Assembly: GCF_026625885.1 (NCBI RefSeq)
Contig: NZ_CP113068.1
Span: forward strand, 806,001-870,000
DNA: 64,000 nt
Source: Roseateles sp. SL47
GTDB lineage: Bacteria; Pseudomonadota; Gammaproteobacteria; Burkholderiales; Burkholderiaceae_C
Direction: 5' to 3'
The notes below the pieces were generated by a model. The model was not told where the DNA came from. It saw only the letters and a program-made list of their open reading frames with translations, and searched no databases. Within the stretch, counting starts at the first letter, position 1; each line of letters begins with the position of its first letter. The translations under genes were made by a program, and so were the position numbers. This document shows, piece by piece, positions 5,630 to 63,294 of the stretch.

Positions 5630-6592
5630 TCAGCCCTTGCTGAGCGATTCCACAACGGGGCGCAAGCGCTGGGAGAGGTGCCCACGGTCCCATCCCGCCA
5701 TCTCTTGCAGGGGCGTCCGTTGGCCCAGTTGCTGCGCGGCCAGTAGGCCGACGTAGTAGCCAACGCGAGGGGGCCAGGCGCCGCGATAACCCGTGTCCAG
5801 AAAAGGTATCGATGCCGCCGGGTCCTGGCTCTCCCACACATCGAGCATGGCCCGCGCGGCCCGTTGCAACACGGCAGGAGGTGTGGCGGTTAGTGCCGCG
5901 TCGTCCAGCAGCACCTGCGTCAGGGTGGCATTTGGATGGAGTTGCTGGCTTGCGTAGGTGGCCAAGCCCTCGACCCACAAAGCCTCGTGCACACGCGGCG
6001 CCGGATCCAGGCTGATCAGCGGTGCGCGCTGCGCGTGATAGCAGTGGAACCACTCGTGGGCAAACAACACGGCAGGGTCCGCATCAACACCGTGAAAGCG
6101 CAGGATGCCATCCGGGGCGAAGAACAGCGGCAAGGGTTGACCGGGGCCCTGGGGCTCCAGATGCGCGTCGAACGTGAACAGAGACGGCATCAGCCAGACC
6201 GGGGAGACCTTGACTTGAAAGTCAGGCAAGGCCTGTGTGAAATGGGCCTGCTGGGTTTCGTACATGGCCGCAAAGGCACGATGCAAGCGTCGGGCGGCGT
6301 CGGCCATGCCGTCGAACTTGGGAAGCCAGGCCCGCACCCGCGGCGAGGTCACAGTGAGGCCTGCCAGCCGGTATGCGGCAGCGTTGGGCTCGAAAAACTC
6401 GGCCATCAGTCGTTCGACACGCCGGAGCGGGTCGAACGCCCGGCCTTGGTCATAAGGCTTCCAGAATGCTGGCATCAGATCCGTGAACCCCGCTGGCGGG
6501 CGCGTCGCCAGAGCCGCTGCGGGGCCCGCGAGACTGCTTGTGGGACCCAGCGTCCAGGCCGCAGTGAGCTGGAGCATGAATCGGCGGTGCAT
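5630..6592 (-). CDS. Putative exported zinc-dependent protease (HExxH)
   Basis: About 320 residues. The start at 6592 (MHRRFMLQL) gives a plausible signal peptide; 6607 or 6667 are alternatives and none has a clear ribosome binding site. The zinc motif HEWFHCYH is followed about 25 residues later by WVEGLATYAS, where the Glu is a likely third ligand. This is the arrangement of DUF2268-like and related putative gluzincins. The substrate is unknown. It lies on the opposite strand to its flanks and is probably monocistronic. Confidence 0.72.
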   Translation of the reverse strand: MHRRFMLQLTAAWTLGPTSSLAGPAAALATRPPAGFTDLMPAFWKPYDQGRAFDPLRRVERLMAEFFEPNAAAYRLAGLTVTSPRVRAWLPKFDGMADAARRLHRAFAAMYETQQAHFTQALPDFQVKVSPVWLMPSLFTFDAHLEPQGPGQPLPLFFAPDGILRFHGVDADPAVLFAHEWFHCYHAQRAPLISLDPAPRVHEALWVEGLATYASQQLHPNATLTQVLLDDAALTATPPAVLQRAARAMLDVWESQDPAASIPFLDTGYRGAWPPRVGYYVGLLAAQQLGQRTPLQEMAGWDRGHLSQRLRPVVESLSKG

Positions 6593-52435: not shown

Positions 52436-52587
52436 CAGACACGCCCACGGCCACTGATCGCAGGGAGATGCCCAGGCGTCACCGAGCTCCTGTAGGCTTG
52501 CCAGTCTTTGCCAACACTGTGCCGATCGGCGTCGTCCGCGCCGCCGATCCGCTGGCATTTCTGCATCTGATCCGGGAGACGGCCGTG

Positions 52588-54504
52588 ATGGGCTGGTTCG
52601 AAAAACTTGTAGACCCTTTCCCCAGCAGCCCGGCGCCGCAGCCGCCGAAGGGCTTCTTTCCCTTCGTCTGGGCGGCGACGGCGGGCATCCGCGGCCTGCT
52701 GCTGATCCTGATCCTGCTCACCGCCGGCATCGGCGCCTTTGAGGCGCTGCTGTTCTCGATGCTGGGTTCGGTGGTGGACTGGCTCAGCCAGGTGGCACCC
52801 GCGCAATGGTGGGCCACCCAGCGGCATCACCTGCTGCTGCTGGGCGGCATTCTGCTGGCCAGCCCGGTGCTGATCGCCTTGCAGGCATTGGTGAAATACC
52901 AAGGCATTGCCAGCAACTTCCCGATGCGCTTGCGCTGGAACTTCCACCGCCACCTCCTGGCCCAGAGCATGAGCTTCTACCAGGATGAATTCGCCGGCCG
53001 GGTGTCGGCCAAGCTGATGCAGACGGCGCTGGCAGTGCGCGAGTGCGTGATGATCGTGACCGACATCCTGGTCTTCATCAGCATCTACTTCGTCACCATG
53101 CTCAGCGTGGTGGGTGGCTTCGACCTGCTGCTGCTGGCGCCGTTCCTGGGCTGGCTGGCCTGTTATGTGCTGGCGCTCATCTACTTTGTGCCACGTCTGG
53201 GGAAGGCGGCGGCAGCCCAGGCCGATGCCCGCAGCCTGATGACCGGGCGCGTCACCGACGCCTACACCAACATCAGCACCGTCAAGCTGTTCTCCCACAG
53301 CCAGCGCGAAGCCGGCTTTGCCCGCAGTGCGATGCTGGATTTCCTGAGCACCGCCTACCGGCAGATGCGCCTGATCAGTGGCTTCGAGGTGGTGAATCAC
53401 GCCCTCTCCATGGGCCTGATTGCCGCCACCGCCGGCATGACCCTGTGGCTGTGGACCCAGGGCCAGGTGGGTGTGGGGGCCGTGGCCGCCGCCACTGCCA
53501 TGGCGCTGCGGCTCAATGGCATCTCCCACTGGATCATGTGGGAGATGGCCAGCCTGTTCGAGAACATCGGCACGGTGCAGGACGGCATCACCACCCTCTC
53601 CCGCCCGATTGCCATCACCGATGCCACGGAGGCCCGTCCGCTGCAGGTGAGCCAGGGCGAGGTGGTGTTTGATCGGGTGGACTTCAGCTACGGTGGCAAG
53701 AAGCCGGTGCTGCAGGCCTTGACGCTGCACATCCGCCCCGGCGAGAAGATCGGGGTGGTCGGGCGTTCCGGTGCCGGCAAATCGACGCTGCTGAACCTGC
53801 TGCTGCGGTTTTATGACGTGGACCGAGGCCGTGTGCTGATCGACGGGCAGGACATCGCCCACGTCACCCAGGACAGCCTGCGGGCCCAGGTGGGCATGGT
53901 CACCCAGGACACCAGCCTGCTGCACCGCTCGGTGCGGGACAACCTGCTGTATGGACGGCCGGACGCCACCGACGACGCCATGCGTGCTGCGGCCGCCCGG
54001 GCTGAAGCCGAGCACTTCATCGACGGGTTGACCGACCCCAAGGGCCGCAAGGGCTATGACGCGCATGTGGGCGAGCGTGGCGTGAAACTCTCCGGCGGCC
54101 AGCGCCAGCGGGTGGCGATTGCCCGGGTGATGCTCAAGGACGCGCCCATCCTGCTACTGGACGAAGCCACCAGCGCCCTGGATTCGGAGGTGGAAGCCGC
54201 CATCCAGCGCAGCCTCTACCGGCTGATGGAGGGCAAGACGGTGGTGGCCATTGCCCACCGCCTCTCCACCATTGCCGCCATGGACCGCCTGATCGTGATG
54301 GACCAGGGCCGGATCGTCGAGCAGGGCGACCATGCCAGCCTGCTGGCGGCCGGCGGCCTGTATGCCAAGCTCTGGGCTCATCAGAGCGGCGGTTTCCTGG
54401 TGGAGGACGGGCTGCAGGACAGCGTGCAGGCGGGGGGCGACCCTGCAGTGGCCCGCGCCACCCCCAGCGCGGATCAGGATTGTGTGGAGGACGCCGCAGA
54501 CTGA
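52588..54504 (+). CDS. ABC exporter (fused membrane and ATPase domains)
   Basis: 638 residues from ATG 52588 (MGWFEKLVDPF), chosen because GGGAGA lies about 12 bases upstream; the longer frame from 52468 is not signal-like. Six membrane helices in the first 350 residues, then the ATPase: Walker A GRSGAGKS, Q-loop VTQDTSLL, signature LSGGQRQR, Walker B ILLLDEATS and the H-loop AHRLSTI. A homodimeric multidrug/lipid-type exporter (MsbA-like family). The substrate is unknown. It could export peptides or lipids, but it has no N-terminal peptidase domain. Confidence 0.93.
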   Translation: MGWFEKLVDPFPSSPAPQPPKGFFPFVWAATAGIRGLLLILILLTAGIGAFEALLFSMLGSVVDWLSQVAPAQWWATQRHHLLLLGGILLASPVLIALQALVKYQGIASNFPMRLRWNFHRHLLAQSMSFYQDEFAGRVSAKLMQTALAVRECVMIVTDILVFISIYFVTMLSVVGGFDLLLLAPFLGWLACYVLALIYFVPRLGKAAAAQADARSLMTGRVTDAYTNISTVKLFSHSQREAGFARSAMLDFLSTAYRQMRLISGFEVVNHALSMGLIAATAGMTLWLWTQGQVGVGAVAAATAMALRLNGISHWIMWEMASLFENIGTVQDGITTLSRPIAITDATEARPLQVSQGEVVFDRVDFSYGGKKPVLQALTLHIRPGEKIGVVGRSGAGKSTLLNLLLRFYDVDRGRVLIDGQDIAHVTQDSLRAQVGMVTQDTSLLHRSVRDNLLYGRPDATDDAMRAAAARAEAEHFIDGLTDPKGRKGYDAHVGERGVKLSGGQRQRVAIARVMLKDAPILLLDEATSALDSEVEAAIQRSLYRLMEGKTVVAIAHRLSTIAAMDRLIVMDQGRIVEQGDHASLLAAGGLYAKLWAHQSGGFLVEDGLQDSVQAGGDPAVARATPSADQDCVEDAAD

Positions 54505-55223: not shown

Positions 55224-55889
55224 ATGGATCACCACAGCGACTCACAACAGCCATCGGCCCCGGCTCCGAACGCGGGCCCCGTGGTGTCGTCGCGCCGCCG
55301 CCGCTTTTTGCAGGCGGGTGTGCCTGTGGGCCTGACCCTGGCCAGCCGCCCTGTCATGGCCTGGCATTGCAACACCACCTCGGCCTGGGGCTCGGCGGTG
55401 CTGCGCAATGGCGGCGCCAGCGTCCAGGCCCGTGCTGCAGCAGCGGTGCTCACCAACACGGAATGCTGGACCATCAGCAACTGGGTGAACAACACCGCGC
55501 GCTCGGCGGTGTCGACCTCGCCCCCGTGGAGCTTCATTGCGGCGTATTGGTACTCCGGCCGCTCGGTCAGCTACTGCAAGAGCAACCTGACGGTCGCCAA
55601 GGTCTACCCGGGCGGCCTGAAAAACGTGTCGTCCTCCGCCAAGGTGGCCGACCTGTTTGCCGCCAATGCTGGCAGCTACGCCACCATGATGCTGGTGGCG
55701 CGCCTGAACACGCTGTTTGCCGGCCATAACGTCGCGCAGTGCGTGGTCTCCTCCACCGGCGAAGACATGCTGGTGAAGATGGCGTCGGTCGGCCCGAACA
55801 GCTTCAAGCCGAACAACGCCGGCAGCACGGCGGCCTGGACGGAAAGCGACTTCCGCAGCTACCTCTACAGCAATTACCTTGTGAGCTGA
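55224..55889 (+). CDS. Tat-signal protein of an HPr-rel-A type cassette
   Basis: 221 residues from ATG 55224. Twin-arginine motif SRRRRFLQAGV followed by a hydrophobic core and a signal cleavage region at VMA. The mature protein (from WHCNTTSAW) has four Cys and an Asn/Ser-rich body with SNWVNNTARSAVST and FIAAYWYSGRS. There is no family I recognise. Its stop overlaps the start of the PqqD-like gene by one base (TGATG), so it is translated with the modification genes. This makes it the most likely target or partner of the cassette. Function unknown. Confidence 0.75.
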   Translation: MDHHSDSQQPSAPAPNAGPVVSSRRRRFLQAGVPVGLTLASRPVMAWHCNTTSAWGSAVLRNGGASVQARAAAAVLTNTECWTISNWVNNTARSAVSTSPPWSFIAAYWYSGRSVSYCKSNLTVAKVYPGGLKNVSSSAKVADLFAANAGSYATMMLVARLNTLFAGHNVAQCVVSSTGEDMLVKMASVGPNSFKPNNAGSTAAWTESDFRSYLYSNYLVS

Positions 55890-56197
55890 TGGCGCTCACG
55901 GCGACGTGGCGCTGCGCACATCGATTGAATGAGGTGCTGCGCGCCTGGGAGGGCGAGCAGCATGCGGTGTTTTTCAACCCCGCCAGCGGGGACACCCACC
56001 TGGTGGCTGCCCTCGGTGCCCAACTCGCCGAGTGGCTCAGCGCGGCCCCGTTGACCCGCACACAGTTGCTGCATCGACTGACCCATGAGGTGGATTGGGA
56101 CGAACAACCGGACCCGGATGCCCTGGCCGACCTGCTGGACCTGCATCTGCGCCGTCTGGTCGACATCGAGCTGCTGCTGGAGGAGCCTGCGGCGTGA
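55889..56197 (+). CDS. PqqD-like protein (HPr-rel-A system)
   Basis: 102 residues. PqqD fold with HLVAALGAQLAEWLSAAPLTRTQLL and DALADLLDLHLRRLVDIELL. PqqD-type proteins bind precursor peptides and hand them to modifying enzymes. As I recall, this subtype is named HPr-rel-A system PqqD family in curated models and is always next to an HprK-like kinase. It overlaps the Tat gene and the kinase gene. No radical-SAM enzyme is present. Confidence 0.85.
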   Translation: MALTATWRCAHRLNEVLRAWEGEQHAVFFNPASGDTHLVAALGAQLAEWLSAAPLTRTQLLHRLTHEVDWDEQPDPDALADLLDLHLRRLVDIELLLEEPAA

Positions 56198-57108
56198 AAC
56201 TCGCCGAGCTGTCACGGGACGATCTTCGCCGGCATCTGCGGGGTGACGGCCTGGCCCTGCGCCTGGCGCCCTTCACGGTGAAGGTGCGTTCGGACCTGCC
56301 GCATCTGGCCGACGACCTCGCGCAGATGTACGACCGCTTCGAGCTGGTACCACCGCAGGACTTCATCGACTTCCATGTGGCCGTGCTGCGCAGCCCGCAC
56401 TGGCGCTCCCGGCTGATGGGCCGCGCCGAATTCTGGTTCGACGGCCAGCGGTCCTTCACCCCGCTGCCCGGCGCCCAGGCGCTTGCCATGCTGGAGTGGG
56501 GCATCAACTGGTGCATTGCCGCCCATGCCCATCAATACCTGCTGATCCATGCGGCGGTGCTTGAACGGGGCGGCCGTGCCCTGGTGATGCCAGCCCCCCC
56601 CGGCTCCGGCAAAAGTACCTTGTGTGCGGCCCTGGCGCACCGCGGCTGGCGGCTGCTCTCGGACGAGCTCGGCTTGCTGGACCTGCGCACCGGTCAACTG
56701 CACGGCATGGCCCGGCCGATCAACCTCAAGAACGCCTCCATCCACCTGCTCAAGGACTTTGCGCCCCATGCTCGCTTCAGCGCCTCCATGCCCAACACCA
56801 GCAAGGGCACGGTGGCCCTGGTGCGCGCCCCCGAGGAGGCCATCGCCCGCCGCCAGGTTCCGGCCCTACCGGCCTGGGTGGTGCTGCCCGCCTGGGTGCC
56901 CCAGAGCAGCGCACGGCTGGAGCCGATTGAGCGGGCCCGGGCCTTCATGACCCTGGCGGAACAAAGCTTCAACTACGACCTGCATGGCCAGATCGGCTTC
57001 CATGCACTGGGCCAGTTGGTGGACCGATGCGAGTGCTACCGCTTTGAATACAGTGCGCTGGACGAGGCCATCCGGCATTTCGACTCGCTGGCGGAGGGGG
57101 CGGAATGA
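56194..57108 (+). CDS. HprK-related kinase A (HPr-rel-A system)
   Basis: 304 residues from a GTG at 56194 that overlaps the previous stop by four bases. Kinase core resembling the HPr kinase C-terminal domain: AHAHQYLLIHAAVLE, Walker A PPGSGKST at 135-142 and the acidic LLSDELGLLD at 154-163. HPr kinase phosphorylates a Ser on HPr; these relatives lack the HPr partner nearby and probably phosphorylate another protein or peptide. Proposed member of the HPr-rel-A cassette, translationally coupled to its neighbours. Confidence 0.87.
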   Translation: MKLAELSRDDLRRHLRGDGLALRLAPFTVKVRSDLPHLADDLAQMYDRFELVPPQDFIDFHVAVLRSPHWRSRLMGRAEFWFDGQRSFTPLPGAQALAMLEWGINWCIAAHAHQYLLIHAAVLERGGRALVMPAPPGSGKSTLCAALAHRGWRLLSDELGLLDLRTGQLHGMARPINLKNASIHLLKDFAPHARFSASMPNTSKGTVALVRAPEEAIARRQVPALPAWVVLPAWVPQSSARLEPIERARAFMTLAEQSFNYDLHGQIGFHALGQLVDRCECYRFEYSALDEAIRHFDSLAEGAE

Positions 57109-58271
57109 GCGCACGCCTGCAGGCCGGCGCTCTGCCCGCACCGCAACACTCCCCGGCGCCCGACCGACCTTTGCTGGTGCGGGTGCTGCTGGCACCAGCG
57201 CTGGGGCCAGGCTTGTCACTGACCGAATGGGATCTGCTGCTGCGGCAGGCCCGCCGGGCCAACCTGGCCGGCAAGCTTGCGCATCTGGCGCAGTCAGGCG
57301 GCTGGCTGGACGAGCTGCCCGCCCCCGTGCAAGCTCACCTGCGCTCAGCGCTGCTGCTGTCTGAACGACAGGCGCAGATGCTGGCCCGGGAGGCTCGTTT
57401 TCTGGCGCAGGCCCTGGCCGAGCTGGCCGGGCCGGTGATTCTGCTCAAGGGTGCGGCCTATGCGCTGGGCGGCCATGCGCCGGCCCCGGGGCGGATGTTC
57501 ACCGACATCGACCTGCTGCTGCGCGCCGACCAACTGCCCCGTGCCGAGATCGCCTTGATGGTGCATGGGTGGGACTTCGATCCCCTGGACGATTACGACC
57601 AGCGCTACTACCGCGAGTGGATGCATGAACTGCCGCCGCTGCATCACCGCCGCCGCGGGACCTCACTGGATGTGCATCACAGCCTGCTGCCGCCGACCGC
57701 GCGAACCCCGTTGAACACCACTGCATTGTTCGACCATCCGCGTGCCCTGCCCGGCCATCCGGGCCTGTCGGTGCTGCCGCCGGAGGACATGCTGCTGCAC
57801 AGCGCGGCTCACCTGTTCCATGAAGGCGAGTTGCCCAATGGCTTGCGGGATCTGTTCGACCTGGATGCCCTGATCCGCGAGTTCAGCGTCATGGAGGGCT
57901 TCTGGCCGCGCTTGCTGGGGCGTGCAGCCCACATCGGGCTGCAGCATCCGCTGGCCCTGGCGCTGCGCTACGCCCAGCGCTGGCTGGACACACCGGTGCC
58001 GGTGGAGGCCACTGCAGCGCTGGCGGATCAGGTGCGGGGCTGGCATCAGCCGCTGCTGGACGCCGCCTACCGCCGGGCGCTACGGCCACCGCATGACAGC
58101 TGCCGACTTCCGGGGCAGGCGCTGGCTGAACTGGCGCTGTATGTCCGAGCCCACTGGCTGCGCATGCCCGCGCCGCTGCTGGCCCGGCACCTGGTGCGCA
58201 AGGCCTGGGGTCGCCTCACCGCCGCCCCGCAGACCGTCAACGACGGTCCACGCCCGGGCGACGGCGCCTGA
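57105..58271 (+). CDS. Nucleotidyltransferase-fold protein (PF14907-type), HPr-rel-A cassette
   Basis: 388 residues from ATG 57105 (ATGA overlap with the kinase). Nucleotidyltransferase-like domain: VILLKGAAYALGG at 111-123 and the catalytic-type MFTDIDLLL at 131-139, then LDVHHSLLPP. The PF14907 family (NTP_transf_5) commonly accompanies HprK-like and PqqD-like proteins in peptide-modification clusters. The predicted role is nucleotidyl transfer to a protein or peptide. Last gene of the cassette; convergent with an S41 protease gene only 3 bases away. Confidence 0.87.
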   Translation: MSARLQAGALPAPQHSPAPDRPLLVRVLLAPALGPGLSLTEWDLLLRQARRANLAGKLAHLAQSGGWLDELPAPVQAHLRSALLLSERQAQMLAREARFLAQALAELAGPVILLKGAAYALGGHAPAPGRMFTDIDLLLRADQLPRAEIALMVHGWDFDPLDDYDQRYYREWMHELPPLHHRRRGTSLDVHHSLLPPTARTPLNTTALFDHPRALPGHPGLSVLPPEDMLLHSAAHLFHEGELPNGLRDLFDLDALIREFSVMEGFWPRLLGRAAHIGLQHPLALALRYAQRWLDTPVPVEATAALADQVRGWHQPLLDAAYRRALRPPHDSCRLPGQALAELALYVRAHWLRMPAPLLARHLVRKAWGRLTAAPQTVNDGPRPGDGA

Positions 58272-58274
58272 GCC

Positions 58275-59834
58275 TCACTGCACACGCGAGCGCCCGGTGC
58301 TCAGATCCAGCGGCGCCGTCCGAGTCGTGAGCGGACGCAGGGTCTGGGTCGCACCGGAGCGCGCACCACCCGCCTGCGCGGTCGCTATCGGACATTGGCC
58401 GGAGGATCGGAACGACAGCGCTGTGGCCAGCATCTGTTCCTCCGGATCGCCGAGCGCATGGGTGAGGTCGTCCTGTGCGTTGCACCCGGGCAGCCCCGTC
58501 GGCCCGGTGCCGCCGGGCTGGAAGCCATCGACGTAATCCCCAAAGCCCTTGGCATTGGTGGCCTGCATCTCGATGGCGAAGGTGGTGACACCGCAGTTAC
58601 TGGCCCCTTCATACCCGTAGGGCTTGCCACAGGTGCCGCTGCCCACCTGGATCACTTCGATGTCGACGCCACGCAGACCATTGATCAGCAGCTCGCTGGC
58701 GGAACAGGTGTTGGGGCCGGTGAGGACAAAGACCCGCCGAAGGTTCAGCGTTGGCAGGGGCTCGCCGGGTTGGCAGCGGTCGTCGCCGTCCAGGCAGGTC
58801 GTGGCGATGAAGGGCATGTCGCTGGCTTGCCCTGCAGCGGTTCGACGCGCGTTCATCCGTACCCGGTTGAACACCCGGTTCGGTGTGGCCTGCCCGGCCA
58901 CCATGTAGGCCAGCTGGCTGGCGATGAACCCCTGCCCACCGCCGTTGTAGCGCAGGTCGAGAACAAGGTCCCGCACTTGAGCGGCCGCCAACTGGGTGAA
59001 GGCGACTTTCAGCGCCTGCTGGGCGGGCTGAGTGAACTCATTGAAGAGCAGATATCCCACCGGCCCGGGCGCACCGTCGGCGGTGGGCAGCACCTTCACC
59101 TGGGGCACGGCCAGCGACTGGAAGGCCTGGGCCACCACGGTCTGGCTGAACTCTGTGGTGCCCCCGCGCCGCCAGACCCAGCGTGCGGAGGTGCCGGAGG
59201 GCGCCGACAGCAGCCGGTCGTCCAGTTGCGCACGCTGCGCGGCATCCTCCACGGAGACGGCCACGCCATCCAGGGAGACGACTTCGTCCCCTCGCTGCAT
59301 GCCTGCCTGAGCGGCCGGACCAAGCGGATCGATCCAGGTGATCGCGATGCGCCGTGGGTGCTCCGTCACGGCGGCCAACTGCACGCCCCACCCGGCCACC
59401 GTTCCCGTGTCAGCCGCGTCTTTTTCCGCCGTGTTGATCCGGTAGCTGAAACGATCCCGGCTGGTGTCGCCATGCGGGCGCACCAGATCGTCCAGCCAGC
59501 GGTTGAGCGCCGTGACATGGTCCACCGGTTGGCCGGGTGCCCCCTGGTAGACCGGTGCGCTCATGTTGAGCGACGGCAGGTCTTCGTTCCAGAGATAGCG
59601 CTCCTGCAGCATGGCCCGCAGCCAGGCCATTTCGGTACGGCGGCTGCCGCTGCGTTGCGACGGGTCGGCATCCGGATTGTCCGGGGCGCATTGATTGGCA
59701 TAGGCGGCGCTGGGCAGGGACAAGGTTGCAGTCGCCGCCGGGTCGGAGGCCTGCCCACCCTCACCACAACCGGTCAGGGCCACCACCGTCAGGCCGGCGA
59801 GCCACGCGGCGTGCGTTCGCTTCCATGGGCGCAT
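58275..59834 (-). CDS. S41-family serine protease lipoprotein (paralog 1)
   Basis: 519 residues. Lipoprotein signal ending VVALTGCGEG. A PDZ-like segment (ITWIDPLGPAAQAGMQRGDEVVSLDG), then the tail-specific protease core: VRDLVLDLRYNGGGQG, the nucleophile Ser in NTCSASELLINGLRG and Lys in GTCGKPYGY. The C-terminal sequence resembles that of the protease at 61345, so the two are paralogs. It probably acts in the periplasm or at the outer membrane. It ends 3 bases before the convergent nucleotidyltransferase gene. Confidence 0.9.
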   Translation of the reverse strand: MRPWKRTHAAWLAGLTVVALTGCGEGGQASDPAATATLSLPSAAYANQCAPDNPDADPSQRSGSRRTEMAWLRAMLQERYLWNEDLPSLNMSAPVYQGAPGQPVDHVTALNRWLDDLVRPHGDTSRDRFSYRINTAEKDAADTGTVAGWGVQLAAVTEHPRRIAITWIDPLGPAAQAGMQRGDEVVSLDGVAVSVEDAAQRAQLDDRLLSAPSGTSARWVWRRGGTTEFSQTVVAQAFQSLAVPQVKVLPTADGAPGPVGYLLFNEFTQPAQQALKVAFTQLAAAQVRDLVLDLRYNGGGQGFIASQLAYMVAGQATPNRVFNRVRMNARRTAAGQASDMPFIATTCLDGDDRCQPGEPLPTLNLRRVFVLTGPNTCSASELLINGLRGVDIEVIQVGSGTCGKPYGYEGASNCGVTTFAIEMQATNAKGFGDYVDGFQPGGTGPTGLPGCNAQDDLTHALGDPEEQMLATALSFRSSGQCPIATAQAGGARSGATQTLRPLTTRTAPLDLSTGRSRVQ

Positions 59835-61314: not shown

Positions 61315-61345
61315 CTTGGGGGAGGGATTCGAACCCTCAACCGAT
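61315..61345 (-). other. tRNA-like 3' fragment
   Basis: On the minus strand a perfect 17-nt T-arm (GAGGGTTCGAATCCCTC, 61322-61338) is followed by acceptor-like CCCCAAG. No anticodon arm, D-arm or 5' acceptor is found upstream, where a protease gene ends. It looks like the 3' end of a tRNA gene, as left by integration of an element. Confidence 0.45.
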
Positions 61346-62928
61346 TACGGACGGCCCCCCGCAATGCGGTTGCTACGAGCCGCCAGGCGCTGAAGGCTGA
61401 TGGCCACGGCATCTGACGACGACGCGGCCGACAGTGCCGATACACGCCCGCTGGCGCCGACCGGCTTGGCCGGGCAGGTGCCATTGCTGCGGTATTGCAG
61501 TGCCGCAGCCAGCATGCTTTCCGAGGTATCACCCAGTTGACGCGACAGATCGTCCGTCATCGAGCACCCCGGCACGCCCGTCGCACCGCTGCCAGCCGCC
61601 ACAAAGCCATCGGCATAGTCGCCGAAGCCCTTGTTGTTGGTGCCGACAAACTCGATCGGGAAGTAGCTGTAGCCGCAATTGTCCTTGCCGGTGAAGCCAT
61701 AGGGCTTGCCGCAGGTCGTGCCGCCAATCAGCACCACCTGCACATCCACGCCGCGCAGGCCGTTGATGATGGCTTCGCTGGCCGAGCACGTCCCTTCCTG
61801 AGCCAGCACAAATACGCGGCGCAGATTCAGCGTGGGCAGCGGCTTCTCGTTGGTGCACTTGCCGTTGGAGAGGATGCAGGACGTGTCATAGAACGGCGTG
61901 CGAGAGTCGCTGCTGTTGGTGTCGGCATTGCGCTGGCTGTTGTAGCGCAGTTGCTCAAACACCTTGCCGCTGGTCGGGGTGGCGCCGGCAATCATGTAGG
62001 CCAGTTCGCTGGCGATGAACAGATAACCGCCGCCGTTGTAGCGAATGTCCAGCACCAGGTCCGACACGTTCTGGCTCTTGAAGTCCTCCACCGCAGCAAT
62101 CAACTGCGCTTCGGACGTGGCCACGTGGTCGTTGAAGACCATGTAGCCCACCTTCGCTCCGTCCCCGGCGGTGATCACCTGGCGCTTGAGCACCGGCGTC
62201 TTGGTCACATTGCTGGCCACCAGAGTGACATCACGTGTGCCCCCGCCGTTGGGCGTCAGCACAAAACGGTGGCTGATGGTCGCACGCGACGGGAACAGCG
62301 CTTCATTCAGCACGTCCACACCTGCGGCGGTGCTGTCATCGGCCCCCGTGCCGTCGGCAGTGACCAGCGTGTCACCCCGCTGCACGCCTGCGGCGGCGGC
62401 CGGGCTGTTGGGCTCCACATAGGCGACACGGATCTTGCGCGGCGGCGTGGCCGAGGCCAGATGCCATTCCATGCCGTACCCCAGCACCACGCCGGAATCC
62501 GACAGCGCATTCCACTCGCGGGTGGACATCACAAAGCTGAACTGGTCCTTGTGCTTGCCACTGCTGGTGATGGCGGGCGTCAGGAGCGCGGTGAAGTAGG
62601 CATTCAGGGCGGCCCCCACATCGCTGCCACTGTATTCGGAAGCGCTGGCGTTGACGCTCGGGACTTCATCGCGCCAGAGGTACGCTTCATTCATGTAGGC
62701 GCGCACCCAGTTCTTCTCAGTCGTCAGGCTGGCAGTGCGCAGGCTGGACGCTGCTTCCACGTTGTTGGCGGCGCATTGCTGGGCGTAGCTGCTGCTACCC
62801 GTCGGCGGCGCGGAGCCGCCGCTGTCGCCATCGGAACCACCCCCACCGCCACAGGCTTGCAGAACCAGAATCGCTACGGCGCTGGCCACGGCCAGGCGCG
62901 CGCGCCGCAGAGTTGCGGGCATCGTCAT
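61345..62928 (-). CDS. S41-family serine protease lipoprotein (paralog 2)
   Basis: 527 residues from ATG 62928 (MTMPATLRR), chosen because GGGAGGAAA lies 7 bases upstream; the frame is open to 62979. Lipobox AILVLQACGG with a long Gly-rich linker. A PDZ-like region (RVAYVEPNSPAAAAGVQRGDTLVTADG), the S41 core (VSDLVLDIRYNGGGYLF), Ser in GTCSASEAIINGLRG and Lys in TTCGKPYGF. Clearly a paralog of 58275-59834. The final codons run into a tRNA-like sequence, so the present C-terminus (ARSNRIAGGRP) may not be ancestral. Confidence 0.9.
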   Translation of the reverse strand: MTMPATLRRARLAVASAVAILVLQACGGGGGSDGDSGGSAPPTGSSSYAQQCAANNVEAASSLRTASLTTEKNWVRAYMNEAYLWRDEVPSVNASASEYSGSDVGAALNAYFTALLTPAITSSGKHKDQFSFVMSTREWNALSDSGVVLGYGMEWHLASATPPRKIRVAYVEPNSPAAAAGVQRGDTLVTADGTGADDSTAAGVDVLNEALFPSRATISHRFVLTPNGGGTRDVTLVASNVTKTPVLKRQVITAGDGAKVGYMVFNDHVATSEAQLIAAVEDFKSQNVSDLVLDIRYNGGGYLFIASELAYMIAGATPTSGKVFEQLRYNSQRNADTNSSDSRTPFYDTSCILSNGKCTNEKPLPTLNLRRVFVLAQEGTCSASEAIINGLRGVDVQVVLIGGTTCGKPYGFTGKDNCGYSYFPIEFVGTNNKGFGDYADGFVAAGSGATGVPGCSMTDDLSRQLGDTSESMLAAALQYRSNGTCPAKPVGASGRVSALSAASSSDAVAISLQRLAARSNRIAGGRP

Positions 62929-63294
62929 CGAGCTTTCCTCCCTAGGGATGTGAAGCCCGCTTTTTATCGACTTGCCCACATCCGTTAACCAACTTGAAAT
63001 ACTTCGAGCGCGATTTATAGCCCCAAATCGAGGCCAGACAACGACTTAAACAATTGGTTCCAACTTTAGGGTGATCTGCAGATCGCCCACACCGCTGGCG
63101 ATCAGCCGCAGACGGCGCAGACGCAGCCGGTGGAACTGCGGCGTGAGGTCCAGGCTGGCGCCGGGCTGTAGCGGGAGATCCTTCGGCCAGACGGACCGGG
63201 TGATCCAGACCTGACCCTCGTGGGCTTAAAAGCGGGTGAGGCTGCAAGCCTGCGCCTGCGTCGTCCCGTCCCGTCCCGGCCCGCGCGTGCCGAC
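62929..63294. other. Intergenic region with a possible DUF2917-like remnant
   Basis: The minus-strand frame 63046-63229 reads GQVWITRSVWPKD and QITLKLEP to a stop, which looks like a DUF2917-type C-terminus. It begins directly after a TAA and lacks a start codon, so it appears to be a broken gene. The promoter of the protease gene should lie at 62929-63040. Confidence 0.4.

Follow-up and report, generated by a model that had tools for sequence, protein, structure and literature searches.

Which protein would be served by a PqqD-like protein, an HprK-related kinase, and a nucleotidyltransferase-fold protein whose genes directly follow that of an apparently exported protein? The question is raised by a four-gene cassette in a stretch of 64,000 nucleotides from Roseateles sp. 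SL47 (contig NZ_CP113068.1, positions 806,001 to 870,000), which we refer to as the window. The first gene of the cassette encodes a protein with a twin-arginine (RR) leader resembling signals for twin-arginine translocation (Tat). A sequence-only reading had classed the cassette as HPr-rel-A type and had proposed the Tat-like protein as the target of an unusual phosphorylation or nucleotidylation pathway. The best reading of our data is that the cassette is a protein-modification unit resembling the tailoring half of the phosphorylated lasso peptide pathway and the clusters for linear polyphosphorylated peptides (LPP) of Bacillota; this makes it a variant of a kind already known from these two systems. 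We consider it fairly probable that the exported protein is phosphorylated under the guidance of a recognition element of ribosomally synthesized and post-translationally modified peptides (RiPP recognition element, RRE), is then acted on by the PF14907 protein, and works together with an XrtA-type exopolysaccharide (EPS).

Results and Discussion

Recurrence of the Four Genes in the Same Order

The four plus-strand genes overlap successively by 1, 4, and 4 bases in the translation of the open reading frames (ORFs), as the sequence-only reading had seen (Table 1). Its family assignments were borne out as well: The PqqD-like protein scores 47.8 bits against TIGR04353 (cut-off 35) and the kinase encoded next to it 394.1 bits against TIGR04352 (cut-off 200), which places both in the HPr-rel-A pair, and the fourth protein matches PF14907 with 187.3 bits (gathering threshold 31.2). 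No radical SAM enzyme or cyclodehydratase, both of which had been noted as missing, and no lasso enzyme was found among the four flanking proteins that were scanned with the cassette proteins against NCBIfam and Pfam. The RR-leader protein itself matched no family of either database at E ≤ 1. The genome of the window holds a single kinase match and a single match to the profile of the RR-leader protein.

Table 1. Coordinates of the cassette, of the parts of its first product, and of neighboring genes in the window.
Feature	Positions	Strand	Basis
RR-leader (Tat-like) protein, proposed substrate, 221 aa	55224..55889	+	translation; matched by 70 homologues
Leader, residues 24–46 (RRRRFLQAGVPVGLTLASRPVMA)	55293..55361	+	column identity in alignment
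Motif WHCNTTSAWGSA, residues 47–58, candidate modification site (S53, S57 first)	55362..55397	+	alignment
Folded, mostly helical domain, residues 81–221	55464..55886	+	predicted structure
PqqD-like protein (TIGR04353), RRE fold, 102 aa	55889..56197	+	NCBIfam match, predicted structure
HprK-related kinase A (TIGR04352), 304 aa, GTG start at 56194	56194..57108	+	NCBIfam match
PF14907 nucleotidyltransferase-fold protein, 388 aa	57105..58271	+	Pfam match
MsbA-like ABC transporter	52468..54504	+	
S41-type peptidase with PDZ domain	58275..59834	-	
S41-type peptidase with PDZ domain	61345..62979	-	

Two genome samples were searched, one of 150 from the window's family and one of 398 from its phylum (538 distinct genomes); a kinase above the TIGR04352 cut-off was present in 37 (40 matches) and 61 genomes, respectively. 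With the window, the 97 loci outside it make 98, of which 96 are readable; in L134 and L154 the contig breaks off immediately upstream of the kinase, and both were left out. Genes were called with a home-made finder, and since the genome searches scored the best few candidates per genome (four for TIGR03087), all absences are soft. A protein with twin arginines and a hydrophobic segment is encoded upstream of the kinase in 88 of the 96 readable loci; 83 of 748 other genes pass a similarly loose RR test, a rate that is not strictly comparable because any plus-strand frame was admitted for the cassettes and one called frame for the controls. The 88 comprise 86 loci with an automatic candidate, minus L069 and L153, which were removed by eye, plus L081, L089, L121 (a 46-residue remnant), and L142, which were added by eye; the RR position was corrected in L077 and L135. 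In L144, 755 bases separate the end of the RR-leader protein from the kinase match. A home-made profile detected the PqqD-like protein in 80 of the 98 loci, 78 of which have the RR-leader protein; the 18 loci without a PqqD match divide into 10 with and 8 without this protein, two of the latter being contig ends. The PF14907 gene is present in 85 of the 98 loci.

The reverse scan started from the exported protein: GTDB genomes carrying the window's protein family were collected with the pattern CN[TS]TSAWG, which inflates the conservation of this motif. It yielded 19 loci, from Roseateles, Mitsuaria, Rubrivivax, Paucibacter, Pelomonas, Rhodoferax, Scleromatobacter, and two Burkholderiales/Burkholderiaceae records, and PqqD, kinase, and PF14907 genes follow in all 19. 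Because the same order recurs in other genomes, the gene set goes beyond chance, and given the RR-leader protein upstream of the kinase (88 of 96 loci) and the trio downstream of the window's protein family (19 of 19), the exported protein is the most likely target of the cassette enzymes. What precedes the trio in most loci is an RR-leader protein of some kind, only 7 of which belong to the window's own subfamily, and the converse finding, a trio that never has this protein, did not occur. The sequence-only interpretation is thus supported in part; the modification is what we infer.

Leader, Motif, and Fold of the Exported Protein

In an alignment of 69 sequences (the window protein and 68 of its 70 homologues, without P0005 and P0074), the mean column identity amounts to 0.84 for leader residues 31–46 and 0.97 for WHCNTTSAWGSA, both values being inflated because the homologues were gathered by exact words shared with the query; it is 0.54 in the folded part (residues 81–221) and 0.41 in the N-terminal extension. 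Among the seven members of the window's precursor group that were reached via the kinase, SAWGS is kept in all and the motif Cys in six. L058 carries Gly at this position and retains SAWGS, so that by its sequence the Cys is dispensable in one case. The AlphaFold2 model of the window protein is confident from about residue 81 onward (block means 77–96) and poor before, motif included. No fold match to this model was found in the PDB, which is no proof of a new fold, and the alignment had no sequence match there up to E 5.

The label Tat derives from the pattern of a twin-arginine n-region, a hydrophobic stretch, and an AxA-like end, which is present in the window protein (RRRRFLQAG...PVMA) and suggests export by this route. 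A PEP-CTERM signal was neither matched by the window protein in NCBIfam nor among the families matched at E ≤ 0.1 by 85 of the 88 precursors (without L081, L121, and L142). The C-terminal residue was considered as acceptor and rejected: The last residue is Ser in the window protein but a different one in many homologues among the matches listed.

BLAST linkage at a threshold of our choosing divided 86 of the 88 precursors (without L121 and L117) into 23 groups, namely eight of 27, 11, 9, 9, 7, 3, 3, and 2 members and 15 singletons; the window protein falls into the group of 7. The nearest kinase carries the same precursor group in 69 of the 71 members of groups of at least two. Two cassettes that differ in their precursors are present in each of three genomes (G144, G116, G084); for one or both of the kinases there, the nearest kinase comes from a different genome and accompanies a precursor of the same group (L071–L085, L088–L093, L081–window). 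As the RR partner differs in sequence between loci, the leader and a short motif emerge as its recurring parts. The pattern C-x(2,3)-[ST]-[GSA]-x(2,3)-S occurs 20–75 residues from the RR in 34 of 49 precursors of one set (1.2 expected by shuffling) and C-[WFY]-x-S-[FLIV] within the last 35 residues in 37 of 39 of the other (0.1 expected), both patterns having been written after viewing these kinase-derived precursors, with related loci that are not independent.

Within the leader, T38 and S41 have a column identity of 1.00 in the alignment. This would suit a form of export control in which phosphorylation of the leader region delays export until the protein has folded and the mark is absent from the final product. 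Conserved Ser motifs outside the leader speak against this idea, as do the PF14907 enzyme and a sulfotransferase variant, which suggest a lasting decoration; we regard it as very unlikely.

PqqD-Like Protein, Kinase, and PF14907 Enzyme

The model of the PqqD-like protein (predicted local distance difference test score, pLDDT, 91) displays the strands and three helices of the RRE fold, and its top structure matches in the PDB are the lasso-peptide B1 proteins 5v1v and 5v1u. By fold it would be an RRE, from which binding of a leader may be expected. The kinase residues N105, H119, G137, G139, K140, T142, D157, E158, G205, P232, and N260 are kept in 96 of 96 loci; in the PF14907 protein, K115, G116, R130, D134, D136, H174, D189, H191, and others are kept in 81 of 81. 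These invariant residues are putatively catalytic, and they include a D-x-D plus a third Asp (D134, D136, D189), which we take to be the catalytic triad. Sequence searches of the PDB returned guanylate and cytidylate kinases only (E ≥ 0.21) for the kinase and one doubtful match (E 0.021) for the PF14907 protein.

At 11 of the 98 loci, the kinase gene is directly followed by a gene for a tetratricopeptide-repeat (TPR) sulfotransferase (e.g., L129:3179-4831; PF13469 was checked on one member). Five of them (L123, L124, L129, L130, L131) yielded no PF14907 gene in the stretch examined, as if the sulfotransferase stood in its place.

Association with Exopolysaccharide Genes

At 43 of the 98 loci, a neighbor within 7 kb falls into a protein cluster whose representative, the one member identified per cluster, is an XrtA/PEP-CTERM EPS or Prs protein (TIGR03088, TIGR03108, TIGR03087, TIGR02915, TIGR02916, TIGR02917, TIGR03013). 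Co-occurrence across genomes points the same way: In the family sample, XrtA (TIGR03109) scored above cut-off in 39 genomes, 35 of 37 with the kinase versus 4 of 113 others (Fisher 2.7e-27), and in the phylum sample in 25 of 61 versus 10 of 337 (2.0e-15), while the glycosyltransferase TIGR03087, which belongs to the same EPS cluster as XrtA, is above cut-off in 58 of 61 versus 10 of 337 genomes of the phylum sample (2.9e-55); these tests ignore relatedness, and the phylum sample is rich in genera g233 and g240. The family sample has two kinase genomes without XrtA: G040, which is 74% complete and has a PF09721 match, and G067, which has none. In the phylum sample, the kinase is present in 33 of the 34 genomes that have TIGR03087 and lack XrtA. 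The two samples together include 38 kinase genomes that lack XrtA above cut-off; a PF09721 exosortase was found in 8 of these and not in the other 30. When these 38 are restricted to genomes of ≥90% completeness and ≤5% contamination, 15 of 20 are without a PF09721 match. Exosortase sorting was rejected as the main link on these grounds, given 30 of 38 XrtA-less kinase genomes without an exosortase match and TIGR03087 in 58 of 61. The TIGR03087 pattern, together with the XrtA-less kinase genomes, implies that the cassette tracks EPS genes more closely than protein sorting. The likeness to the XrtA/PEP-CTERM exosortase system thus lies in genome co-occurrence and neighborhood; the system differs in that the RR-leader protein has no PEP-CTERM match and the cassette also occurs in genomes without an exosortase match.

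The association with EPS genes, and the kinship of the kinase to HprK by name, would also agree with a regulatory role, in which kinase and PF14907 enzyme control EPS synthesis via another cytoplasmic protein or a small molecule and the RR-leader protein is a co-expressed, unmodified matrix protein. We judge this unlikely: The RRE would have no obvious role, the precursors diverge yet keep the leader and short Ser motifs, a sulfotransferase shares the operon in 11 of 98 loci, and the LPP clusters (PMC13381572) set a precedent for modification.

The link to XrtA-type EPS goes beyond the sequence-only reading, and it may have been noticed earlier by others. A literature search by HPr-rel-A names and family identifiers, which covered few subscription papers, brought up no paper recognized as describing the cassette among those listed; by name, it led to the LPP paper PMC13381572 alone, through the HprK-like kinase. 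The main texts of the paper defining PEP-CTERM/EpsH (PMC1569441) and of a Sphingomonas exopolysaccharide screen (PMC11340318) do not contain "HprK" or "PqqD" and "HPr" or "PqqD", respectively.

Comparison with Linear Polyphosphorylated and Lasso Peptides

In LPP biosynthesis, as described by Popov et al. 2026 (PMC13381572), an RRE, an HprK-like kinase, and a nucleoside triphosphate (NTP) transferase act on a linear precursor of 35–200 aa with a conserved N-terminus and a variable C-terminus. The clusters are described as restricted to Bacillota and lie in capsular polysaccharide loci. The kinase LppK places one to four phosphates on core Ser3 and does not accept Thr or Tyr as substitutes; the leader, which bears a YxxP motif, is removed by a signal peptidase I (SpI) homologue, and a dedicated peptidase, LppS, and an MsbA-like transporter are encoded. 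Deletion of lppN caused no visible change, and the role of LPP is given as unknown. The cassette shares with LPP, matched by family name rather than by direct comparison with an LPP sequence, the precursor, the discrete RRE, the HprK-like kinase, the NTP transferase, the polysaccharide setting, and, as proposed here, loss of the leader to a signal peptidase, and neither requires a lasso cyclase. The attribute "unusual" in the sequence-only reading is weakened, since this family had already been published in 2026. The two differ in the RR leader and the predicted folded product of the cassette, and in the SpI-like leader peptidase and MsbA-like transporter, which are not part of the conserved unit here.

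This kinship also brings up an LPP-like peptide pathway, in which a cleaved phosphorylated peptide or protein serves as a signal or in bacterial conflict and the EPS link reflects co-regulation. The RRE fold, the adjacency of motif and leader in the window's type, and the size and the conserved-to-variable layout of LPP precursors, much like those of the precursors here, are in its favor. It is nevertheless quite unlikely in our view, as the window protein retains about 140 confidently folded residues, the conserved unit comprises neither peptidase nor transporter, and the motif lies near the C-terminus in other lineages.

In lasso pathways, according to PMC9266682, HprK-like kinases phosphorylate the C-terminal Ser of the precursor, and PsmN puts a hexose on the phosphorylated Ser, with nucleotidylation as a conceivable alternative. 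The cassette resembles the phosphorylated or glycosylated lasso peptides paeninodin and pseudomycoidin in pairing an HprK-like kinase with a nucleotidyltransferase-like enzyme on a precursor and in the B1-type RRE fold. It differs in its larger product, in an acceptor that is no conserved C-terminal Ser, and in the absence of a B2 protease or C cyclase among the four flanking proteins scanned. The invariant H119, K140, D157, and E158 may or may not correspond to the His-Lys-Asp-Asp motif of lasso kinases.

Neighboring Genes and Side Observations

The two S41-type peptidases of the window, which are related to each other, are convergent with the cassette, and one gene separates the MsbA-like transporter from it (Table 1). 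Both were considered as parts of the cassette and rejected as local synteny. An S41 relative lies downstream in 12 of the 19 loci of the reverse scan and was not seen in the stretch examined of the other 7; the S41 cluster appears in 4 of 98 kinase loci. The transporter lies upstream in the same 12 and was not seen in the other 7. Its connection to the cassette is possible by analogy, given that LPP clusters include such a transporter. Among the neighbors of the 98 loci, no peptidase or transporter recurs in the conserved unit.

In 13 of the 98 loci (L062, L063, L064, L075, L090, L096, and others; PF13365 on one member), a trypsin-like protease is encoded no more than a few genes from the cassette. 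L078 has tandem RR-leader proteins ahead of one trio (5973-6560 and an ORF ending about 700 bases before its end). L111 and L114 have a kinase above cut-off near EPS genes and no PqqD, PF14907, or RR-leader protein in the stretch examined; they represent either orphan kinases or assembly gaps. Sigma-54-like sites with a score of at least 9 of 10 precede 16 of 86 precursor genes (e.g., L097, L125, L072, L073; the window is not among them) versus 18 of 585 controls, a count inflated by related loci, and hint at control by PrsR.

Proposed Mechanism

For RRE-guided modification of the exported protein, we envisage five steps. In the cytoplasm, the PqqD-like RRE would bind the precursor by its RR leader. 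The HprK-like kinase would then phosphorylate a motif Ser: in the window S53 or S57 of CNTTSAWGS, which are the best candidates because, in analogy to the LPP core Ser, they lie close behind the leader; in other lineages presumably the Ser of C-[WFY]-x-S-[FLIV] near the C-terminus. The LPP precedent makes this step more credible. Next, the PF14907 enzyme might add a sugar or nucleotide to the phosphate, as suggested by PsmN, the TPR-sulfotransferase possibly joining or replacing it in some lineages. The folded, modified protein would be exported, probably by Tat, and a signal peptidase would remove leader and signal together. Outside, it would act together with the exopolysaccharide that the XrtA-type EPS cluster produces, a link supported by the co-occurrence.

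Several observations weigh against this scheme. The RR-leader protein was not found in 8 of the 96 readable loci (L069, L111, L113, L114, L120, L128, L138, L153), six of which also have no PqqD match, and 13 of the 98 loci, some of them contig ends, showed no PF14907 gene. None of the 88 leaders has the [Y/W]xxPx[LVIFA] motif (the YxxP motif included) that marks the leaders of lasso and LPP precursors. Generic Tat models do not match the window protein (P0001) at E ≤ 0.1, and at this threshold PF10518 matches 2, TIGR01409 1, and TIGR02811 ("formate_TAT") 6 of the 85 scanned precursors. The agreement between precursors and kinases would also be expected from co-inheritance in one operon. In addition to the relatedness ignored by the Fisher tests, the cassette (0.86 Mb) and the XrtA genes (5.40 Mb) are unlinked on the 6.39 Mb contig of the window. 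The third step is weakened by the lppN deletion, which had no visible effect in the LPP system. The modification, its site, and the extracellular role of the window protein are, in sum, what we infer.

A more specific version, in which the Tat-type signal doubles as the RiPP leader gripped by the RRE, a Ser-linked phosphosugar or nucleotide is added before export, and the protein anchors or primes the XrtA-type exopolysaccharide, appears doubtful to us at present.

Implications

XrtA/PEP-CTERM EPS systems build flocs in environmental bacteria; in Aquincola, mutants of prsT and of epsB2 no longer form them (PMC9850573). For the so far uncharacterized HPr-rel-A genes, the present reading offers a probable substrate, residues that are candidates for modification, and a pathway. 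If the proposal is true, RRE-guided phosphorylation, shown for an LPP peptide of Bacillota, would extend to larger exported proteins in a second bacterial group. The polysaccharide neighborhood of both the cassette and LPP suggests a shared role. Under the more specific version that we hold doubtful, tailoring by a kinase and an NTP transferase would, together with LPP, be a general way of joining proteins to surface polysaccharides in two phyla.

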